Part shown: piece after piece, positions 6,774 to 24,573 of the stretch | Layout: each line of letters begins with the position of its first letter | Position numbering within the stretch: the stretch's first letter is position 1 | Source of the DNA: Pedosphaera parvula Ellin514 | GTDB taxonomy: Bacteria; Verrucomicrobiota; Verrucomicrobiia; Limisphaerales; Pedosphaeraceae | Assembly (NCBI RefSeq): GCF_000172555.1 | Contig: NZ_ABOX02000059.1 | Location: 1 to 40,763, forward strand | Length of the DNA: 40,763 nucleotides | Reading direction: 5' to 3' | The notes under the pieces: generated by a model | Databases searched by the model: none | The model's input: the letters and a program-made list of their open reading frames with translations, nothing else | Told to the model about the DNA's origin: nothing | Translations under genes and position numbers: made by a program

Positions 6774-7202
6774 TTACTGCCGCAATAAAATCCACCGGAC
6801 CAACCGAGGCTCGCGCAAGATGAGTCCCACCCAGACCAGCAGGCCAAAGCCAATCGAGAAGGCGATTGGGAAAATTCCGCTTCTGGCGATCACTTGCGTG
6901 GCTGCCGCGCCGCCGAGATAGCCAGTCAATAGAATCGCCCCGAGGATGGCGGTTTTTGGGATCACGTAGAGGGCGGTGCAGGCGAGCAACAGGATGCCGA
7001 TGCGTACGGCCAAATCAGGGCCAATGCCCATCTTCTGGCACGCTTCCATCACCCGAGCCACGCGGATAACCTTGGTGATTCCGTCGAAAGCCAGAAACAA
7101 CACCACTAGTCCGGTGAGGCCTGCTCCCAGCCACGGCATCACCTTGGAAACAGAGGAGAGTTCAGCCGACGTTTGCATGATTGTGTCTTGATTCATAGTC
7201 AT
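6774..7202 (-). CDS. DoxX-like integral membrane protein
   Basis: About 142 residues with four predicted transmembrane helices, near 22-40 (PWLGAGLTGLVVLFLAFDG), 68-82, 86-103 and 112-130. The pattern of a first helix followed by FDGITKVI, then PKTAILGAILLTGYLGGA, is typical of DoxX-like proteins, thought to act in the membrane in redox or quinone-linked roles. The ATG at 7202 is preferred over a GTG at 7208; 7196 is also possible. It begins 17 bp after the stop of the AraC-type regulator, suggesting an operon in which the regulator may control this gene. Confidence 0.85.
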   Translation of the reverse strand: MTMNQDTIMQTSAELSSVSKVMPWLGAGLTGLVVLFLAFDGITKVIRVARVMEACQKMGIGPDLAVRIGILLLACTALYVIPKTAILGAILLTGYLGGAAATQVIARSGIFPIAFSIGFGLLVWVGLILREPRLVRWILLRQ

Positions 7203-7219
7203 AATCACACCGTAGCGAA

Positions 7220-7957
7220 CTATGCCGGCTCCTTATTGTATAAAAACGACAACTGTTCCTTCCCGTGCGTGATTCGCGCCGGGCTCTGTCCGATGAATCG
7301 CTGCAGCGACCGGGTGAGATGTGCCTGATCGTAATAACCCGCTTCGTGAACCACATCGAGGATCGGGGTGCCTTGCCTCAAGAGCTGAGTGGCCCGCCGG
7401 GCGCGCTCAATCTGGTGAATGGCGCCGCGGGTCAACCCCGTTACCTGGAGCACGCGTCGTTGTTCGGTCCGTGTCGTAACACTTTGCAGCTCTCCGCGAA
7501 TCGCGCCCTCCACGGTGCGATCGCTCCCAATCAACCCGCTCCGCACAAGCTTGTTCACAAACGTCTCCATGTTCTCAAAGTTGGGAAAATCCCACGCTGA
7601 ACCATTTAGCCAGAATGAATGTCCCGTCGCGTTCGGCAGGGTCACGCCGTTACGATCACGCAGATTGCCTGATCGCATCAGAGGCATGAAGGTGCCGAGT
7701 TTGAAGAGCACCCCAAACCACTCGCCCTGCGCCGGACAATCCGCCATCGTGGCCTTCGTTTCCGGCCCGCGCACGGTCAAAGAGATCTTACCCTCCAGGC
7801 GCGTGACGACCATCACCCAGTGACACGTGGCGATGGAATGAAACATTCCCGCCTGGTCGCTGTGACTGCGCCAAACCCTTTCAACGAAGGGGGAGTCGGA
7901 CGGGCGATCAGCGAAGGTGATAAGCTTGCCAGGTTCCATTATTTCGTGTGCCTCCAT
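7220..7957 (-). CDS. AraC-family transcriptional regulator
   Basis: A 245-residue regulator when started at the ATG at 7957 (MEAHEIMEPGKL). The N-terminal ~150 residues form an effector-binding domain; the C-terminus is a two-HTH AraC/XylS domain of which the second HTH is clear (ILDVVHEAGYYDQAHLTRSL, then RFIGQSPARI). The frame stays open upstream to 8377, but that Arg/Pro-rich extension resembles no AraC sequence and lies in repeat-like DNA, so I excluded it. The next genes encode DoxX and DUF4287 proteins in the same direction. AraC-DoxX pairing suggests a stress- or solute-induced membrane function; the effector is not predictable. Confidence 0.88.
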   Translation of the reverse strand: MEAHEIMEPGKLITFADRPSDSPFVERVWRSHSDQAGMFHSIATCHWVMVVTRLEGKISLTVRGPETKATMADCPAQGEWFGVLFKLGTFMPLMRSGNLRDRNGVTLPNATGHSFWLNGSAWDFPNFENMETFVNKLVRSGLIGSDRTVEGAIRGELQSVTTRTEQRRVLQVTGLTRGAIHQIERARRATQLLRQGTPILDVVHEAGYYDQAHLTRSLQRFIGQSPARITHGKEQLSFLYNKEPA

Positions 7958-10838: not shown

Positions 10839-11942
10839 ATGATTATAGGCGTTCCGAAAGAAATCAAGGACCATGAATATCGGGTGGCGTTGCTGCCATC
10901 AGCCGTCTATCAACTGATCAAGCGCGGGCACCAGGTGGTGGTGGAGCGAGGCGCGGGAGCCGGTGCGGGTTATCCCGATGTCGATTACCAACAGGCGGGC
11001 GCCACGTTGGTGGAGGATCATCGCAAGGTTTTTGAGAAGGCGGGATTGATTGTGAAGGTGAAGGAACCGCAGCCGTCTGAACTGCCGTTGTTGCGACAGG
11101 GCCAAATTATTTTCACGTATCTGCACCTGGCAGCGAGTCGTGCGTTGACGGAAGGGATGTTGAAGACGGGCGTCACGGGTATTGCTTATGAAACGATCGA
11201 GGTGAATCGCCGGTTGCCTTTGTTGGAGCCGATGAGCGAAATCGCCGGTCGTATGTCGGTGTTGGTGGGCGGCTTTTTTTTGGCGAAGCACAATGGCGGC
11301 AGTGGTGTGTTGCTCGGTGGCGTGCCGGGGGTATTGCCGGGTCGCGTGGTGGTGTTGGGCGGCGGAGCATCGGGCATCAATGCGGCGCGGATGGCGACGG
11401 GTTTGGGCGCGGATGTGACGATTCTCGAAGTGGATTTGGAACGGATGCGTTTTCTCGACATTACTTTGCATACCGCGCACACGCTTTACTCGAGCGAGGC
11501 GCACTTGGTGAGTTTGTTGCCGACGGTGGATTTGTTGATTGGGGCGGTGTTGGTGCCGGGAGCGAAGGCGCCGAAACTGATTAATCGCGAAATGTTGCAG
11601 CACATGCGGCCGGGTAGCGTGCTGGTGGATATCGCCATCGACCAGGGTGGTTGCGCCGAGACGTCCCGCGCGACGACGCATCAGAATCCGGTTTATGTGG
11701 AGGAAGGCGTGACGCATTATTGTGTGGCGAACATGCCTGGTGCTTATGCGCGAACGGCGACGCAGGCGTTGACGAATGTGACGTATCGCTATGTGGAATT
11801 GCTTGCGGATCTTGGCCTGGCGGAAGCTTGCCAGAAGCAGCCAGCGTTGATCGGCGGCATCAATATCATGGATGGCAACGTGACGCACAAGGCCGTGGCC
11901 GAGGCGCATGGTGTTCCATACACGGCACCGGTCTTAAGTTAA
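10839..11942 (+). CDS. ald: Alanine dehydrogenase
   Basis: A 367-residue, full-length enzyme of the family that converts L-alanine, NAD+ and water to pyruvate, ammonia and NADH in the cytoplasm. Substrate and catalytic residues are in place: R15, K75 (VKVKEPQ) and H96 (TYLHLA), plus an aspartate at 268 in VDIAIDQGG matching the usual Asp270. The NAD-binding loop is GGGASGINAARMA near 174-186. The end (NVTHKAVAEAHG) is typical. It follows the YihY-like gene by 16 bp on the same strand, so the two may share a transcript, although no functional link is obvious. Confidence 0.97.
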   Translation: MIIGVPKEIKDHEYRVALLPSAVYQLIKRGHQVVVERGAGAGAGYPDVDYQQAGATLVEDHRKVFEKAGLIVKVKEPQPSELPLLRQGQIIFTYLHLAASRALTEGMLKTGVTGIAYETIEVNRRLPLLEPMSEIAGRMSVLVGGFFLAKHNGGSGVLLGGVPGVLPGRVVVLGGGASGINAARMATGLGADVTILEVDLERMRFLDITLHTAHTLYSSEAHLVSLLPTVDLLIGAVLVPGAKAPKLINREMLQHMRPGSVLVDIAIDQGGCAETSRATTHQNPVYVEEGVTHYCVANMPGAYARTATQALTNVTYRYVELLADLGLAEACQKQPALIGGINIMDGNVTHKAVAEAHGVPYTAPVLS

Positions 11943-12022
11943 GAATTTCAGCAAATTCTCAAAGGCAGGAAAAACGGTGGGAGAGGGTTCTTCCGCCGTG
12001 GAGAGTGAAAGCGCGGACGAAA

Positions 12023-12119
12023 TTACGTCCACAACTGTCGATCGAGCGTGCGATACTTGATGGCTTCGGAGACATGCTCGCTCGCAATATGTTCGGAACC
12101 GGCGATGTCAGCGATGGCG
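12023..12119 (-). pseudogene. comM (yifB) 3'-end fragment
   Basis: On the minus strand this stretch encodes [18 protein letters not shown], then [11 protein letters not shown] and a TAA stop. It aligns without gaps to the last ~31 codons of the intact comM (21613-21709) at a constant offset of 9590 bp. About 15 of 93 bases differ, yet the protein is almost unchanged. Upstream of about 12119 the similarity stops, and no start or AAA domain is present. It is a stranded gene end, not a gene. Confidence 0.85.
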
Positions 12120-12235
12120 CGGGACAACGCTCCGAGTCGGGCATGGTGGCCTGCTCGCGATGGTTGGCTTGCGAGGTTCTAAACTTGAACCAATCCATGG
12201 AGGCTGCCTTGGGGACTGCGTGACTGTGGCAAGGT

Positions 12236-14347
12236 TTATTGAAGCTGCAAACGGTAAAATACTGGCGGTGAATTGGATGGCAATGGATTGGACATCGAAA
12301 ATGAGCCGGTTTGGTCAAATGTGTTCGTCGCTGCCACCGTCCAACTGCCCGGCGCCGCAGCCAGATTGGTTGAAGTTAGCATGTAATACATGTCTCCAGG
12401 AAAGCCATTGGTGCAGCTAAGTCGCATTGTCCCGTTCCCCAATGAAGCGATTTGGAGGATCGGTGGCTGCTGGCCAAGTCCTGGGGCCAGGGCAATTTGG
12501 CCCAACAACACTGGCGCGGTGAAGTTGTAGAAGATGGCCGTTTCCGGCGCGGATTTGTCAGTGACGGGCTTGTTGCCGACCCAATAAGTCTGGCCCAGCG
12601 CCTGATGGTTCAGATTAGGACTGTTCGCATCGCTGGTATAAATATTCACATAAGGCGTCGACGCGGTGTAATTGCCGACGATACGCAAGCGATAGACGTT
12701 CAGCACATCGCCAGGGGTGGTGTAGGTGCCGCCGCCGGTGTTGTCCACCGAGAAGGCCACTGTGCCCAGACCGGGCAGAAGCGTGAAAGTGCCGCCATTG
12801 TAAATGCCAAAGCGGCCCAGGTTGTCCACACCCAGCGAAACCTTGCTGCCGGTGATGTCGTTATGGAAGAGGTCCACCTTGAATTTTACGCCGGTGCCGG
12901 TAAAGGCCGAGCCAATGGCAAACAGGCAATCCATCGTCCAGTTCGGGCCGGGGCTGGAAATCCATTGATAAACATATTGATTATTTGCCTTGTCAAAGCG
13001 CAAGGCATTGTTGGTTCCATAGAAATTGGAAGACAAAAGGATGTCCGTGTATTTGGGACTGCAAAGCCAGTCGCGAAACAGGCATTCATAATCCTTGAGA
13101 CCTACAGAAACCGGCGTCAGCAGCAGTCCGCGCCGGTTGAAATCGGCGTTGCGCATCACTGGCGGAGGCCCCAGCGGTGTTCCGCTGGCATCGGGGACGT
13201 TGTCGAGTTTAATGGTGCCCTGCCAGCCGCCGTTTGGCTGAATACTATCCCAGGTATAGGTGTAGTCCATGTGATAGGCCACCCGTGAGTTGTAGGTGTT
13301 TCCAAACATTTTGATACCGGAGGAGATGATGCCCATATTCGTTTCCAGAAACGATCGCTGGAAGCTGGTGGTTCCGCTGCTCAACTGGCTGGCCTGCGCG
13401 GAGGTCAGGGCGCAATTATAGCTCTGGGGAGAATACCCGTTGTCGCTGAAGTGCAGGGCGGCGTAGGGTCCCGACCCGCCCGAAGCCAGGTAGGTGAACG
13501 AATTGCCGCTGACTTGGAAATAGGTCCCAAAAAATTCATCGCCCGCGGAGTCAGAGTTCGTCACATTATACAATTCCGCGCTGACGAACGGCCACGCCGA
13601 CGCGCTTTTCGTGCTGATAAACTGGCAATTTTGCACGACGCAGTATTCGGAATCATCCCGGAAGCGCACATAATCTGCCAGGCAGTCCTGAAAAACGCAG
13701 TCGGACACCACCACGTTCTCAATATCGTGCGGCGCATAAATCATGTGTTGGTGGCTGCCGGCGGTGATATTCGTGAAATTACAATTATGGACCTGGATAT
13801 CTCTCGTTCCATTGAGCAGTCCAATGGCTGCGTAATAGGCATTCGTCAAATCCAAGAACCAGCAATTGGTGATTTCAATATTTCGGCACGGCTTGGTGCC
13901 ATTCGGTATGCAATAGATTCCCCAATTCGGTGAGGGACCGGTGAAGACCAGGCCATTTACTTGAAAGTTTTGACATCCGTACAGCTCGATGATGTTGGCG
14001 GAGGGGCTGAGCACGGGCCCATGAGGATTCACTGCTGCCAGCGTCAACGGATACAATGGATTGCCCATATTCGTTAAACTCAGACTTCCGGCAGTATATG
14101 TGCCGTCTTCGAAATTAACTGTGACATTCCCGGATTGAAGCTGGCTCTGAACGGTGCTCCAGAAAGAGGTGGTGCGATAGTTAGCCGCGTTGGTGACTGA
14201 AGAGCCGTTGCCCGTCCCGGCAGCCGCCGGAGCCACCCAATAGCTGGTGCTTGCGGGCGGCGCCCGTGTAACCGAAAGCGCCCAGGAACAAAATGCACAC
14301 AACAAAAAGGCCAGGTTTCTAAACAAAGATTGGCTCATGTGATTCAT
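12236..14347 (-). CDS. Secreted right-handed beta-helix protein
   Basis: About 703 residues with a signal peptide (SLFRNLAFLLCAFCSWALS). After YWVAPAAAGTGNGSSVTNAA, a hallmark of secreted beta-helix proteins, residues ~50-330 carry coil repeats such as CRNIEITNCWFLDL, IQVHNCNFTNI and ENVVVSDCVFQDC. A LamG/beta-sandwich-like region follows. The last ~65 residues (YYMLTSTNL ... WTVAATNTFD ... FYRLQLQ) match the tail of the autotransporter-like protein at 18651. The fold suggests binding or cleavage of a polysaccharide; no catalytic residues can be assigned. It lies 34 bp downstream of the NarL-type regulator. Start: ATG at 14347, though 14338 is also plausible. Confidence 0.85.
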   Translation of the reverse strand: MNHMSQSLFRNLAFLLCAFCSWALSVTRAPPASTSYWVAPAAAGTGNGSSVTNAANYRTTSFWSTVQSQLQSGNVTVNFEDGTYTAGSLSLTNMGNPLYPLTLAAVNPHGPVLSPSANIIELYGCQNFQVNGLVFTGPSPNWGIYCIPNGTKPCRNIEITNCWFLDLTNAYYAAIGLLNGTRDIQVHNCNFTNITAGSHQHMIYAPHDIENVVVSDCVFQDCLADYVRFRDDSEYCVVQNCQFISTKSASAWPFVSAELYNVTNSDSAGDEFFGTYFQVSGNSFTYLASGGSGPYAALHFSDNGYSPQSYNCALTSAQASQLSSGTTSFQRSFLETNMGIISSGIKMFGNTYNSRVAYHMDYTYTWDSIQPNGGWQGTIKLDNVPDASGTPLGPPPVMRNADFNRRGLLLTPVSVGLKDYECLFRDWLCSPKYTDILLSSNFYGTNNALRFDKANNQYVYQWISSPGPNWTMDCLFAIGSAFTGTGVKFKVDLFHNDITGSKVSLGVDNLGRFGIYNGGTFTLLPGLGTVAFSVDNTGGGTYTTPGDVLNVYRLRIVGNYTASTPYVNIYTSDANSPNLNHQALGQTYWVGNKPVTDKSAPETAIFYNFTAPVLLGQIALAPGLGQQPPILQIASLGNGTMRLSCTNGFPGDMYYMLTSTNLAAAPGSWTVAATNTFDQTGSFSMSNPLPSNSPPVFYRLQLQ

Positions 14348-21612: not shown

Positions 21613-23139
21613 TCAAGTCCACAACTGCCTGTCCAACGTGCGATACTGGATGGCTTCGGAGACGTGCTCGCTGGCGATGTGTTCGGAACCGGCCAGGTCA
21701 GCAATGGTGCGAGCGACTTTAAGAATGCGATCATAGGCGCGCGCGCTGAGTTTGAGATCCGACATGGCGAACTTGAGCAATTCCAACGTGTCCGCATCGA
21801 TGGCGCAATAGGTTTTCAACTCGCGGCTGCCCATGCGGGCGTTACAGGAAATCGAGGGTTTTGCAGAAAAGCGCTTCTGCTGGCGTTCCCGGGCGGCGAC
21901 GACGCGGTCACGGATTTGAGCGGAAGCCTCCCCGGTTCGTTCCCCGGTAATTTCGCGGAATTTAACCTGCGGCACTTCGATGTGCAGATCAATGCGGTCC
22001 AACAGAGGACCGGAAATGCGACCGAGGTAATTTTGAATTTCGCGGGGAGAACTTTTTGACTCGTGCGGCATTTTTCCGTCCGGCGTCGGATTCATCGCGG
22101 CCACCAGCATGAATTCCGCGGGGAAGGTCATGGTGCCGGCAGCGCGTGAGATGGTGACGTGGCCTTCTTCCAAAGGTTGGCGCATGGTTTCCAAAACGCT
22201 GCGCTTGAATTCAGGCAGTTCATCCAGGAATAACACTCCATGATGTGCCAGGGAGATTTCGCCGGGAGTTGGATTGATATTGCCGCCCAGCAGGCCGGCA
22301 TCGGAGGCGGTGTGATGTGGAGCGCGGAAAGGGCGGCGGGTGACCAGTGCCTGACCAGGTTTGAGAAGTCCGACAATGCTATGGACTTTGGTCGTATCGA
22401 GTGCTTCCTGCAACGTGAGAGGAGGAAGAATGGTGGCGAGCCGCTTGGCGAGCATGGATTTGCCGGTACCGGGTGGGCCGATGAGCAAAACATTGTGACC
22501 ACCAGCAGCGGCAATCTCCAGGGCGCGCTTCACCGATTCCTGACCTTTCACATCCGCAAAATCATATTCCTCATCCATGGGCTGGTCGAAGATTTGTGCA
22601 ATATCGACCTTGGTGGGACTGATCTTCAGTTCGCCTCCAAGGAAGCTGGCAGCTTCACGGAGGTTGCGAACCGGGATGACAAGCAAGCCATTGACCACGG
22701 CGGCTTCGGCGGCGTTTTCAGCGGGGACAAGAATGCCAGCTTTCCCGGCGTCGCGAGCTTGAATGGCAATCGACAGAATCCCTTTGACCGACCGGATGGC
22801 ACCCGTCAGGGCGAGTTCGCCAACCATGACGAAATTGTCGAGTTGGTCGGTCTCAATCTGTTCACTGGCGGCCAGGATGCCTACGGCGATGGGCAGATCG
22901 AAACTGGGTCCTTCTTTTTTTACGTCGGCAGGCGCGAGATTGATGGTGGTTTTGCCGAAGGTAAATTTGAAGCCGGAGTTTTGTAGCGCCGTGCTCACGC
23001 GATCGATTGACTCTCTCACGGCGGCATCCGGCAGGCCGACGATAACAATTTTGCTATCGCCGTAACCATCATTAACTTCAACTTCGACCGGAAACGCCTC
23101 AATGCCATTCACGGCTGCGGAACAAACCCTTGCTAACAT
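21613..23139 (-). CDS. comM: YifB/ComM-family Mg-chelatase-like AAA+ ATPase
   Basis: A complete 508-residue protein. An N-terminal ChlI/Lon-like domain (residues 1-170, opening [20 protein letters not shown]) is followed by an AAA+ core with Walker A GPPGTGKS at 221-228 and Walker B VLFLDEL at 302-308, and a C-terminal Mg-chelatase domain ending YRTLDRQLW. In Vibrio, ComM is a hexameric branch-migration helicase that aids integration of DNA taken up by transformation. Its first 35 codons and leader are duplicated at 24392-24542 and its last ~31 codons at 12023-12119, so this gene has been a target of rearrangement. No competence genes are adjacent. Confidence 0.95.
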
Positions 23140-23185
23140 GGGAAAGTTATCTCCGAGCCGGAGAAGAACTGCAATCAGGTTTTTG
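23035..23185 (-). repeat. Direct repeat copy 1: comM codons 1-35 plus leader
   Basis: This is the left copy of a 151-bp direct repeat, matching 24392-24542 without gaps at an offset of 1357 bp and with 7 mismatches by my count. It is the 5' end of the intact comM and 46 bp of its upstream DNA. Beyond 23185 the two copies differ completely. Confidence 0.9.
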
Positions 23186-23328
23186 GAATTGCATGAACAA
23201 ACGCGGCGAACAGACCGCCAGAGGGGGGCAAGTGGACAGCTACAGCGGTAAAGCGGATTCTAGCTTGTGCAGCTTGAGACTAGGCGCGCTGTGTGTGTTT
23301 ATTTGCGCGCGCGCTATTTGCGTCTTGC

Positions 23329-23352
23329 TCGCTCAAGTTTTGGCTTGAGCGA
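23329..23352 (-). terminator. Inverted repeat overlapping the end of the 78-residue gene
   Basis: TCGCTCAAG (23329-23337) and CTTGAGCGA (23344-23352) are perfectly complementary with a 6-nt loop, and span the stop codon of the minus-strand gene at 23333. There is no clear U-run, so it is only a possible terminator or mRNA-end structure. Confidence 0.45.
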
Positions 23353-23569
23353 TCTTAGTCCGCAACTCGTTCAGATGCTCCTCAATATCTGACAATTCTT
23401 CCTCCCACTTCTCTATCACTTCTCCCGTTGCGGTGTTGTTCATCAATACGGAATTGATGAGGGTGTGAGCGACAAATAAACGTTGCTCTACTTCCTCTTT
23501 CGTTTGTGCCGCCCGCTGCTTCACAAAGAGGCTATCGAAAACTTTTTTTGCTGTTTCTTGGTCTGTCAT
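23333..23569 (-). CDS. Hypothetical 78-residue helical protein (comM-locus cargo)
   Basis: A small charged protein (MTDQETAKKVFDSLFVKQR...) predicted to be almost wholly alpha-helical, with a coiled coil over the last 30 residues (VIEKWEEELSDIEEHLNELR). It has no membrane segment or recognised domain. AGGA lies 8 bp upstream of its ATG. It follows the 229-residue gene by 38 bp in the same direction, and the pair is enclosed by the comM direct repeat. A two-gene cargo with two coiled-coil proteins would fit an interacting pair such as a toxin-antitoxin or defence unit, but nothing in the sequence proves this. Confidence 0.75.
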   Translation of the reverse strand: MTDQETAKKVFDSLFVKQRAAQTKEEVEQRLFVAHTLINSVLMNNTATGEVIEKWEEELSDIEEHLNELRTKIAQAKT

Positions 23570-23607
23570 GTTCGGTTCCTGTGATTGGTTATTGCGGCTT
23601 AATCATG

Positions 23608-24297
23608 CTACAGCTCCGGTGACTGTGGTTGCCCGCCTGTAAGAAGTTTTTCTCCCACGTTTGCAATGAGTTGTTGTCCTTGCTTCGACTGAAGAAACTT
23701 TTTGCTCAAATCCATGAGTTTGTTCCCCGCGCTCCGATACCATGTCTTTTTGGGCACCTCTTCAATTGCCCTTTGCAATGTGGCCACAGTTTCCTTCACC
23801 TTGCGCAGTTCCTCTTCATTAATGCCATTTTGCTTCTTAAGTTCCCCAAATTTTTGCAGCAATTCATCAAATCTGGAGTGAAGTTGCGCGGCCTCTTCGC
23901 TAGAAAAATGCGCAGTAGCGTCACTAAAATGATTGTTCAGTTTTTCCGCGAATTCAGCTTTCACTTTTTCAAGTTCATCGTAGAAGGGGTTTCCTGTCTT
24001 GAGTTCGCGCTGGATGTAAACACACCAATCACTAATTTTATCTATGCAACCATCCAATCCGTGTATCCTCTCAGTATGAACATTTTTTAATTCTCCGGGG
24101 GAAAATTGAACTGACATATTCCCATCTTTTTCATAAAAAAGGAAATAATAGGAATCGTTGTCGAGATAATGAATTCGAGCGAACACCTCTTTTTGCGGTG
24201 TGTCGATTCTGAAGCTAGCAGCAGAAAAAAAACTAGCGTCAAGGGAGTCGTATATTTTCCTTAACGCGGTCTTTGTTATGAGTGTTGTGGTTGCCAT
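23608..24297 (-). CDS. Hypothetical 229-residue coiled-coil protein (comM-locus cargo)
   Basis: I do not recognise this protein. Residues ~1-90 look like a mixed alpha/beta sensing or binding domain (EVFARIHYLDNDSYYFLFYE, then VQFSPGEL). Residues ~105-180 are heptad-rich coiled coil (FDELLQKFGELKKQNGINEE). The C-terminus is amphipathic with a basic segment (RSAGNKLMDLSKKFLQSKQG) and may touch a membrane. A good Shine-Dalgarno (AAAGGA) precedes the ATG. Bases across the gene look more A/T-rich than in comM or the GH31 gene. With the 78-residue gene it forms the whole coding content of the comM-bracketed insert, and it appears to be the lead gene. Confidence 0.8.
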   Translation of the reverse strand: MATTTLITKTALRKIYDSLDASFFSAASFRIDTPQKEVFARIHYLDNDSYYFLFYEKDGNMSVQFSPGELKNVHTERIHGLDGCIDKISDWCVYIQRELKTGNPFYDELEKVKAEFAEKLNNHFSDATAHFSSEEAAQLHSRFDELLQKFGELKKQNGINEEELRKVKETVATLQRAIEEVPKKTWYRSAGNKLMDLSKKFLQSKQGQQLIANVGEKLLTGGQPQSPEL

Positions 24298-24367
24298 GGA
24301 GTTCCTTTGGATTACGTATGTCAGAATACCGACTTAATATTTACATCTACAAGTCCCAAAATTATCT

Positions 24368-24496
24368 TTAAAGTTGCTTAAGGTTAATGTTGCCAACGAT
24401 AACAATTTTGCTATCGCCGTAACCATCATTGACTTCAACTTCGAACGGAAACGCCTCGATGCCGTTTACGGCTGCGGAACAAACCCTTGCTAACAT
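24368..24496 (-). pseudogene. comM 5'-end fragment
   Basis: Starting at the ATG at 24496, codons 1-35 match comM ([20 protein letters not shown] ... KIVIVG) with one amino-acid change, V19F. The frame then leaves the homology, adds NINLKQL and stops at 24368. Four of the five coding differences from comM are synonymous, so the fragment derives from a recently functional gene. The leader is also duplicated, to 24542, which lies 32 bp from the end of the GH31 gene. Confidence 0.88.
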
Positions 24497-24542
24497 GGGA
24501 AAGTTATCTCCGAGCCGGCGAAGAACTGCAATCAGGTTTTTG
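24392..24542 (-). repeat. Direct repeat copy 2: comM codons 1-35 plus leader
   Basis: This is the right copy of the 151-bp repeat described at 23035-23185, in the same orientation. It closes the insert on the GH31 side. Confidence 0.9.
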
Positions 24543-24573
24543 AAACCGGTATGAAATTTACCTTGTTGGCCGT

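Follow-up and report, generated by a model that had tools for sequence, protein, structure and literature searches.

The window analysed here, a stretch of 40,763 nucleotides from Pedosphaera parvula Ellin514, carries a complete comM gene, a second copy of the comM 5′ end and a short insert between the two. Reading rightward from the comM leader, the insert consists of a recombinase remnant, a 78-aa gene and a 229-aa gene, and is closed by the comM 5′ stub. A further comM piece, derived from the 3′ end, lies beside a gene that we take to be ald, encoding alanine dehydrogenase. All assemblies compared in this study are drafts.

Table 1. Features of the comM locus in the window
Feature	Position	Strand	Basis or remark
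ald (alanine dehydrogenase)	10839..11942	+	name presumed
comM 3′ stub, codons 471–508, beside ald	12026..12139	−	comM comparison
Complete comM, 508 aa (ChlI / Mg_chelatase / Mg_chelatase_C)	21613..23139	−	
Leader of the putatively re-completed comM	23140..23188	−	
C-terminal remnant of a 219-aa-type serine recombinase, frameshifted	23187..23274	+	antiparallel to comM
Cargo gene 2, 78 aa	23333..23569	−	no family above cut-off in the libraries searched
Cargo gene 1, 229 aa	23608..24297	−	no relative found in the collections searched
comM 5′ stub	24389..24545	−	repeat and junction comparison; read as LSR attL
Stub leader	24497–24545	−	
Stub codons 1–31	24496–24404	−	
Stub core dinucleotide GT, first two bases of codon 32	24403–24402	−	
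Stub element arm	24401–24389	−	

The direct repeat at the comM 5′ end, which had been reported from the sequence of the window, is real. Its copies at 23035–23188 and 24392–24545 align over 154 bp with 95% identity at a spacing of 1357, and the probability of one such ungapped alignment arising by chance is negligible (log10 P about −78). Both copies hold the comM start and, as claimed, a 46-bp leader, which contains one mismatch and is followed by one further mismatch and two matching bases. The claim that both also hold codons 1–35 has to be shortened: the comM-derived portion of the stub stops at codon 32, and the rest of the counted repeat is an element arm that partly resembles comM. The 5′ stub is 94.6% identical to complete comM. 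Within codons 1–31, five codons differ and four of these differences are synonymous, the exception being codon 18 (V in complete comM, F in the stub). The probability of finding one coding change or none among five in a freely decaying dead copy is 0.02–0.09; since such a copy should show more coding change, this is a weak sign that part of the stub differences arose in working genes. The original prediction had likewise derived the stub from a functional comM on account of mostly silent differences, and the count of four out of five agrees with this.

The DNA between the repeat copies was said to hold only two genes of unknown function on the same strand. Two same-strand ORFs of 78 and 229 aa are indeed present, but they are not alone, because a remnant of a small serine recombinase lies next to the comM leader. 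The statement that no integrase is visible was therefore wrong. This remnant corresponds to residues 190–218 of a serine recombinase of G001, the sole genome of the same genus among those searched, and is recognisable in two frames. No LSR match was found in the window between 23188 and 24391, where only the small-recombinase tail occurs, and no left arm remains in the window. On contig C16 of the same genome (L080), an LSR and a 219-aa-type serine recombinase lie a few kb apart, at 7113–7754 and 11611–13071, and in several genomes of the order such a pair likewise shares a contig.

The G+C content of the 229-aa and 78-aa genes is 0.43 and 0.45, respectively, compared to 0.56 in comM and the GH31 gene. 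Both proteins gave only weak matches in Pfam and NCBIfam, none of them over the curated cut-off, and only weak matches in PADLOC (best E 0.00026), with no clear known defence family; for the 78-aa protein, the search covered these family libraries. The 229-aa gene was found in 1 of 293 genomes of the order, namely its own, and is thus not part of a duplication common to relatives, which had been named as the sign of an old local event. No relative of the 229-aa protein was found in GTDB contigs (by pattern scan), plasmids or phages, and its single-sequence fold was unusable (mean pLDDT 41.7).

The 3′ stub lies 9.5 kb from complete comM, with an autotransporter-like gene, a sensor kinase, a response regulator and a 706-aa gene in between. 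In relatives, ald is a close neighbour of the comM 3′ end: a DnaJ-domain gene separates the two in G001, a similar stub does so in G005, and the two are also close in G021. The stub therefore marks the old comM 3′ end. The two stubs differ in their distance to the present comM, with 22 of 113 differences in the 3′ stub compared to 5 of 93 in the 5′ stub (Fisher p = 0.003). Because its identity to comM is only 80.5%, compared to 94.6% for the 5′ stub, the 3′ stub looks older.

In G001, the match to comM begins only at codon 32. The broken gene is adjoined by a 538-aa LSR (PF00239, PF07508, PF13408), the element also holds a 219-aa serine recombinase and a bSEFIR gene, and its far end is a comM stub of codons 1–34. 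G015, a member of another family, has comM broken at codon 32 as well, with the LSR beside comM on one contig and the stub on another. Alignment of the junctions placed the crossover on the first two bases of codon 32. In G001, this site is nearly palindromic: its element arms are inverted repeats alike at 10 of 13 positions, a value equalled by 6 of 15,574 element 13-mers. The arm of the window stub agrees with the G001 arm at 11 of 13 bases, 6 of 7 agreeing in its outer half; just 2 of 81,500 window 13-mers on both strands match this well, and one of them sits at the predicted base. Stub c of G005 also reached 11 of 13, five comM genes unbroken at codon 32 scored 4–7 of 13, and agreement was poor for the arm of G015 (7 of 13) and that of G005 stub a (5 of 13). 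On these alignments, the window stub is best read as the left junction (attL) of a serine-integrase element at comM codon 32. This agrees with the proposal of a foreign insertion at a hotspot near the comM start, as relatives carry other cargo at the same boundary, namely bSEFIR in G001 and AbiU and SIR2 in G005, which is an outcome that the original prediction had named as support.

In G001 (L033, 9430–9470), the reading frame enters from the element and an in-frame ATG lies a few codons ahead of comM codon 32; this ATG may be a short replacement start provided by the element. The G001 LSR had no relative in IMG/VR in a pattern scan, which reaches close relatives only. At E ≤ 1e-55, it was matched in 1 of 286 genomes drawn from the class, and G001 itself did not appear among the matches listed.

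The arrangement in G005 resembles that of the window: an antiparallel recombinase tail lies by the leader, followed by a 130-aa ORF, an AbiU-type gene and stub c (codons 1–34). Beyond it come a 118-aa ORF and stub b (codons 1–26), followed by a SIR2-type gene, further ORFs and stub a (codons 7–34). The G005 comM at this stub array matches only up to codon 118. The tail is antiparallel beside the leader both in the window genome (G000) and in G005, where the breaks fall at different points within the last 46 codons of the same recombinase. No LSR remains beside the stub in either genome. We rejected the reading that the tail proves the leader to be an element boundary, since the break points differ. 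The copy of the leader stops at about −40 to −49 in the window, in the G005 c/d comparison and at a contig edge in G197, and the leader with codons 1–32 recurs as a unit in the window, in G005 c/d and b/d, and at the G197 contig edges. In G129, the coding part is copied (91.7%) and the leader is not. A fixed leader boundary was not accepted as a mechanism because the likeness of G005 b/d extends about two ten-base blocks further and G129 has no copied leader. In G197 (L067, L090), one contig stops at comM codon 33 and a second starts at leader position −45, with 138 identical bases; the same repeat unit seems to have interrupted the assembly.

A comM query found matches in 57 of 58 relatives. 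With the first 44 comM residues as query, 276 of 320 genomes of the order gave matches, 17 of them at least two. LSRs adjoin comM pieces in 10 of 30 genomes (G001, G015, G305, G053, G040, G010, G302, G021, G208 and G268), a proportion that is not a rate because the 30 were chosen mostly for carrying comM pieces; the LSR match of G268 lacks the first 70 residues. A query derived from G305 held antisense comM, and its matches inside comM genes were left out. The LSR-bearing junctions fall in five codon regions, at about 32, 64–70, 118, 212–218 and 348–352. Around codon 350, an element end resembling that of G268 precedes the 3′ stubs of G285, G003 and G017, which amounts to a mirror image of the window scar; G208 has only the arm in common with this end. 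In G285, complete comM is followed by 589 bp with a helix-turn-helix-like frame (by eye) and then by a 3′ stub of codons 348–507, and the sequence upstream of this stub resembles the right end of the G268 element. The complete and broken comM of G285 are only 71–77% identical, so the complete gene came from afar. Complete comM is thus close to the neighbouring stub in G000 (94.6%) and G129 (91.7%) and far from it in G285, and more than one route may operate. Elements with both junctions on one contig (G001, G305 and G268) contain no comM.

Defence genes were found at such comM places. Among 20 hand-picked proteins, PADLOC gave seven clear defence matches (bSEFIR, SIR2, AbiU, and the MTase and REase of both type I and type II systems); three ATPases matched mads_8, and ten proteins had no match at E ≤ 1e-5. 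As comM elements and stub arrays of relatives hold bSEFIR, AbiU, SIR2 and restriction genes, the two orphan genes of the window are defence candidates by position only, and they may form a defence pair.

Several other arrangements were observed around comM. A large ATPase gene with a mads_8 match lies in the codon-352 elements of three genomes (L050 10088–13153, L075 560–3679 and L069 13572–15983), and two of the three ATPases were scanned with Pfam and matched TrwB_AAD_bind. In G302 (L066, L075), comM pieces adjoin two different LSRs at codons 218 and 352, and a second comM ATG is located about 127 bp behind the codon-218 junction. In G191 (L061, 7479–7649), an antiparallel comM piece of codons 375–431 lies directly upstream of complete comM. 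The best named matches to the window comM were MAGs of Verrucomicrobiia, Limisphaerales and Verrucomicrobia subdivision 3 (81–82%). Outside the order, an extra comM piece from the 3′ half was present in 4 of 80 kept loci and an extra 5′ piece in none, these loci having flanks of up to 10 kb, many of them shorter. One of these loci, in a Phaeodactylibacter MAG (L150, 2494–3600), carries a XisH and a XisI gene that separate a complete comM from a 116-bp comM piece, an insert of two genes like that of the window.

Our favoured explanation, with a probability of about 0.55, is that an LSR element split comM at codon 32 and that comM was later re-completed by recombination with another comM copy. 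An element with an LSR related to that of G001 would have integrated at codon 32 and split the gene, the 5′ stub being the left junction of the integrated element. Another comM copy, from a sister strain or present as a second copy nearby, would then have recombined, so that the gene body regained a complete 5′ end and a promoter. The same recombination would have removed the LSR, the right junction and most of the second, small serine recombinase, of which the tail stayed behind together with the stub and both cargo genes. Integration is well supported; healing, the order of events and homologous recombination as the means of repair are what we infer. If the comM copy recombined into the gene body and ended inside the element, no LSR would be expected beside the stub, as found in G000 and G005. 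Some observations count against this model. No strain pair among the compared genomes shows the states before and after, and the spread of the leader ends is smaller than random repair joints suggest. This narrow boundary and the recombinase tail common to G000 and G005 speak against healing by recombination, which leaves them without explanation. Known islands that pair an LSR with a small serine recombinase and leave their target gene intact (PMC3146451) also argue against repair. Also counting against the model are G129, where the coding part is copied and the leader is not, the poorly matching arms of G015 and of G005 stub a, and the far-diverged complete comM of G285.

The original prediction had proposed that the element brings its own comM 5′ end and displaces the old one, as in dusA and ssrA islands, so that comM is never lost. 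This is a serious rival, but it is less likely than was claimed, and we consider it rather improbable, because the LSR-bearing elements seen at codon 32 leave comM broken (the element being whole in G001 and in two pieces in G015) and because the window retains neither an LSR nor a left arm. The recurrence of the leader and codons 1–32 as a unit speaks for it, as does the recombinase tail that adjoins the new 5′ end in two genomes. It also has precedents: dusA islands supply a 5′ end (PMC4482086), and Dehalococcoides ssrA islands combine 540-aa and 200-aa serine recombinases with tandem arrangement and direct repeats of the target gene end (PMC3146451). However, none of 50 LSR matches, inspected by eye among the matches listed, lies on a contig with a complete comM; the LSR contig G305:C59 also carries comM, but the gene is broken. 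Moreover, two element arms are expected at the site of a serine integrase, and here one of the two would be comM itself.

It is less probable still that a second, complete comM came in, either within the cargo or through an insertion of its own, the 5′ and 3′ stubs of the window being the old ends of a gene whose middle was lost. Both old ends do flank the complete gene, G285 has a far-diverged complete comM beside the 3′ end of another, and the second ATG of G302 fits this arrangement. The unequal distances of the two window stubs to the complete gene (5 of 93 and 22 of 113, p = 0.003) argue against such an origin, as do the comM-free interiors of the elements in G001, G305 and G268. An ordinary local duplication or an assembly error would be compatible with a draft assembly, but it is very unlikely given the low G+C between the copies, the recombinase remnant in the insert, the matching element arm and the similar layout in G005.

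Re-completion of comM after splitting, if correct, bears on whether cells regain a competence gene after a mobile element has broken it, which is an unsettled question. A healed scar that retains an attachment arm, the former gene end and some of the cargo would record such salvage directly and could be dated, and by its location it draws attention to candidate defence genes, the two window orphans among them. A broader and tentative reading is that comM passes through repeated cycles: it is interrupted by serine-integrase elements, which often carry defence genes, and is then restored by the cell using the DNA of other cells, perhaps via the very transformation pathway that comM serves. Each round would then fix an islet beside a dead gene end, and rows of stubs, such as the three in G005, would be a readable record of mobile elements against host recombination.

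The LSR and the small recombinase weakly resemble CcrB (62.7 and 34.5 bits against a cut-off of 900) of the SCC elements (CcrA/CcrB), whose remnants likewise stand in arrays at one gene; their target is a different one. The integrase of dusA islands is of the tyrosine type, and AbaR and Tn7-like islands carry transposase genes, whereas the window insert contains no transposase gene, only the two orphan ORFs.

In dusA-specific islands, the original 5′ end is displaced and a new one stands on the gene (PMC4482086), as also seen for the window comM. They differ by their 21-bp att repeats, and an integrase is absent from the window insert, which holds the serine recombinase remnant instead. The Dehalococcoides ssrA islands (DsiA/DsiB) resemble the G001 pair of 538 and 219 aa in their two recombinases, and the window in their direct repeats (PMC3146451). 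However, their target is tmRNA, their repeat has 20 bp and their recombinases are present; the window has a protein gene, a 154-bp repeat and, in place of a 540-aa/200-aa-type gene pair at one insert end, only the tail of the small recombinase.

Acinetobacter comM islands, including AbaR, have the same target, defence cargo (CBASS, Zorya) and an associated idea of salvage by recombination (PMC11472951, PMC7508600), but they are in part Tn7-like, and the parallel drawn with AbaR in the original prediction holds by target gene only. Salvage of comM by recombination was raised there and was no more frequent than by chance (PMC11472951), and curing of the island with repair of comM raised transformability (PMC7508600). 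In naturally competent bacteria, joining by homology at one end and illegitimately at the other is described (PMC3240628).

Among the closest published elements are those in ‘magnesium chelatase’ genes (Durrant et al. 2022, PMC10083194; phage WO sr1WO, PMC9203015). Serine integrases favour this magnesium-chelatase-like gene, which by our reading is comM, and cross over inside it so that it is split. Unlike these, the window has no LSR, and its insert is not flanked by comM halves because the adjoining comM is complete; a comM junction with core dinucleotide and element arm is present on one side only. The available text of both papers gives no healed or stacked scars, and no published account of comM re-completion scars was found in the literature as judged from listings. 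A broken comM made whole again while leaving stubs, three in a row in G005, looks like the new part, and healed and stacked scars would add to the published LSR targeting and the defence-bearing comM islands.
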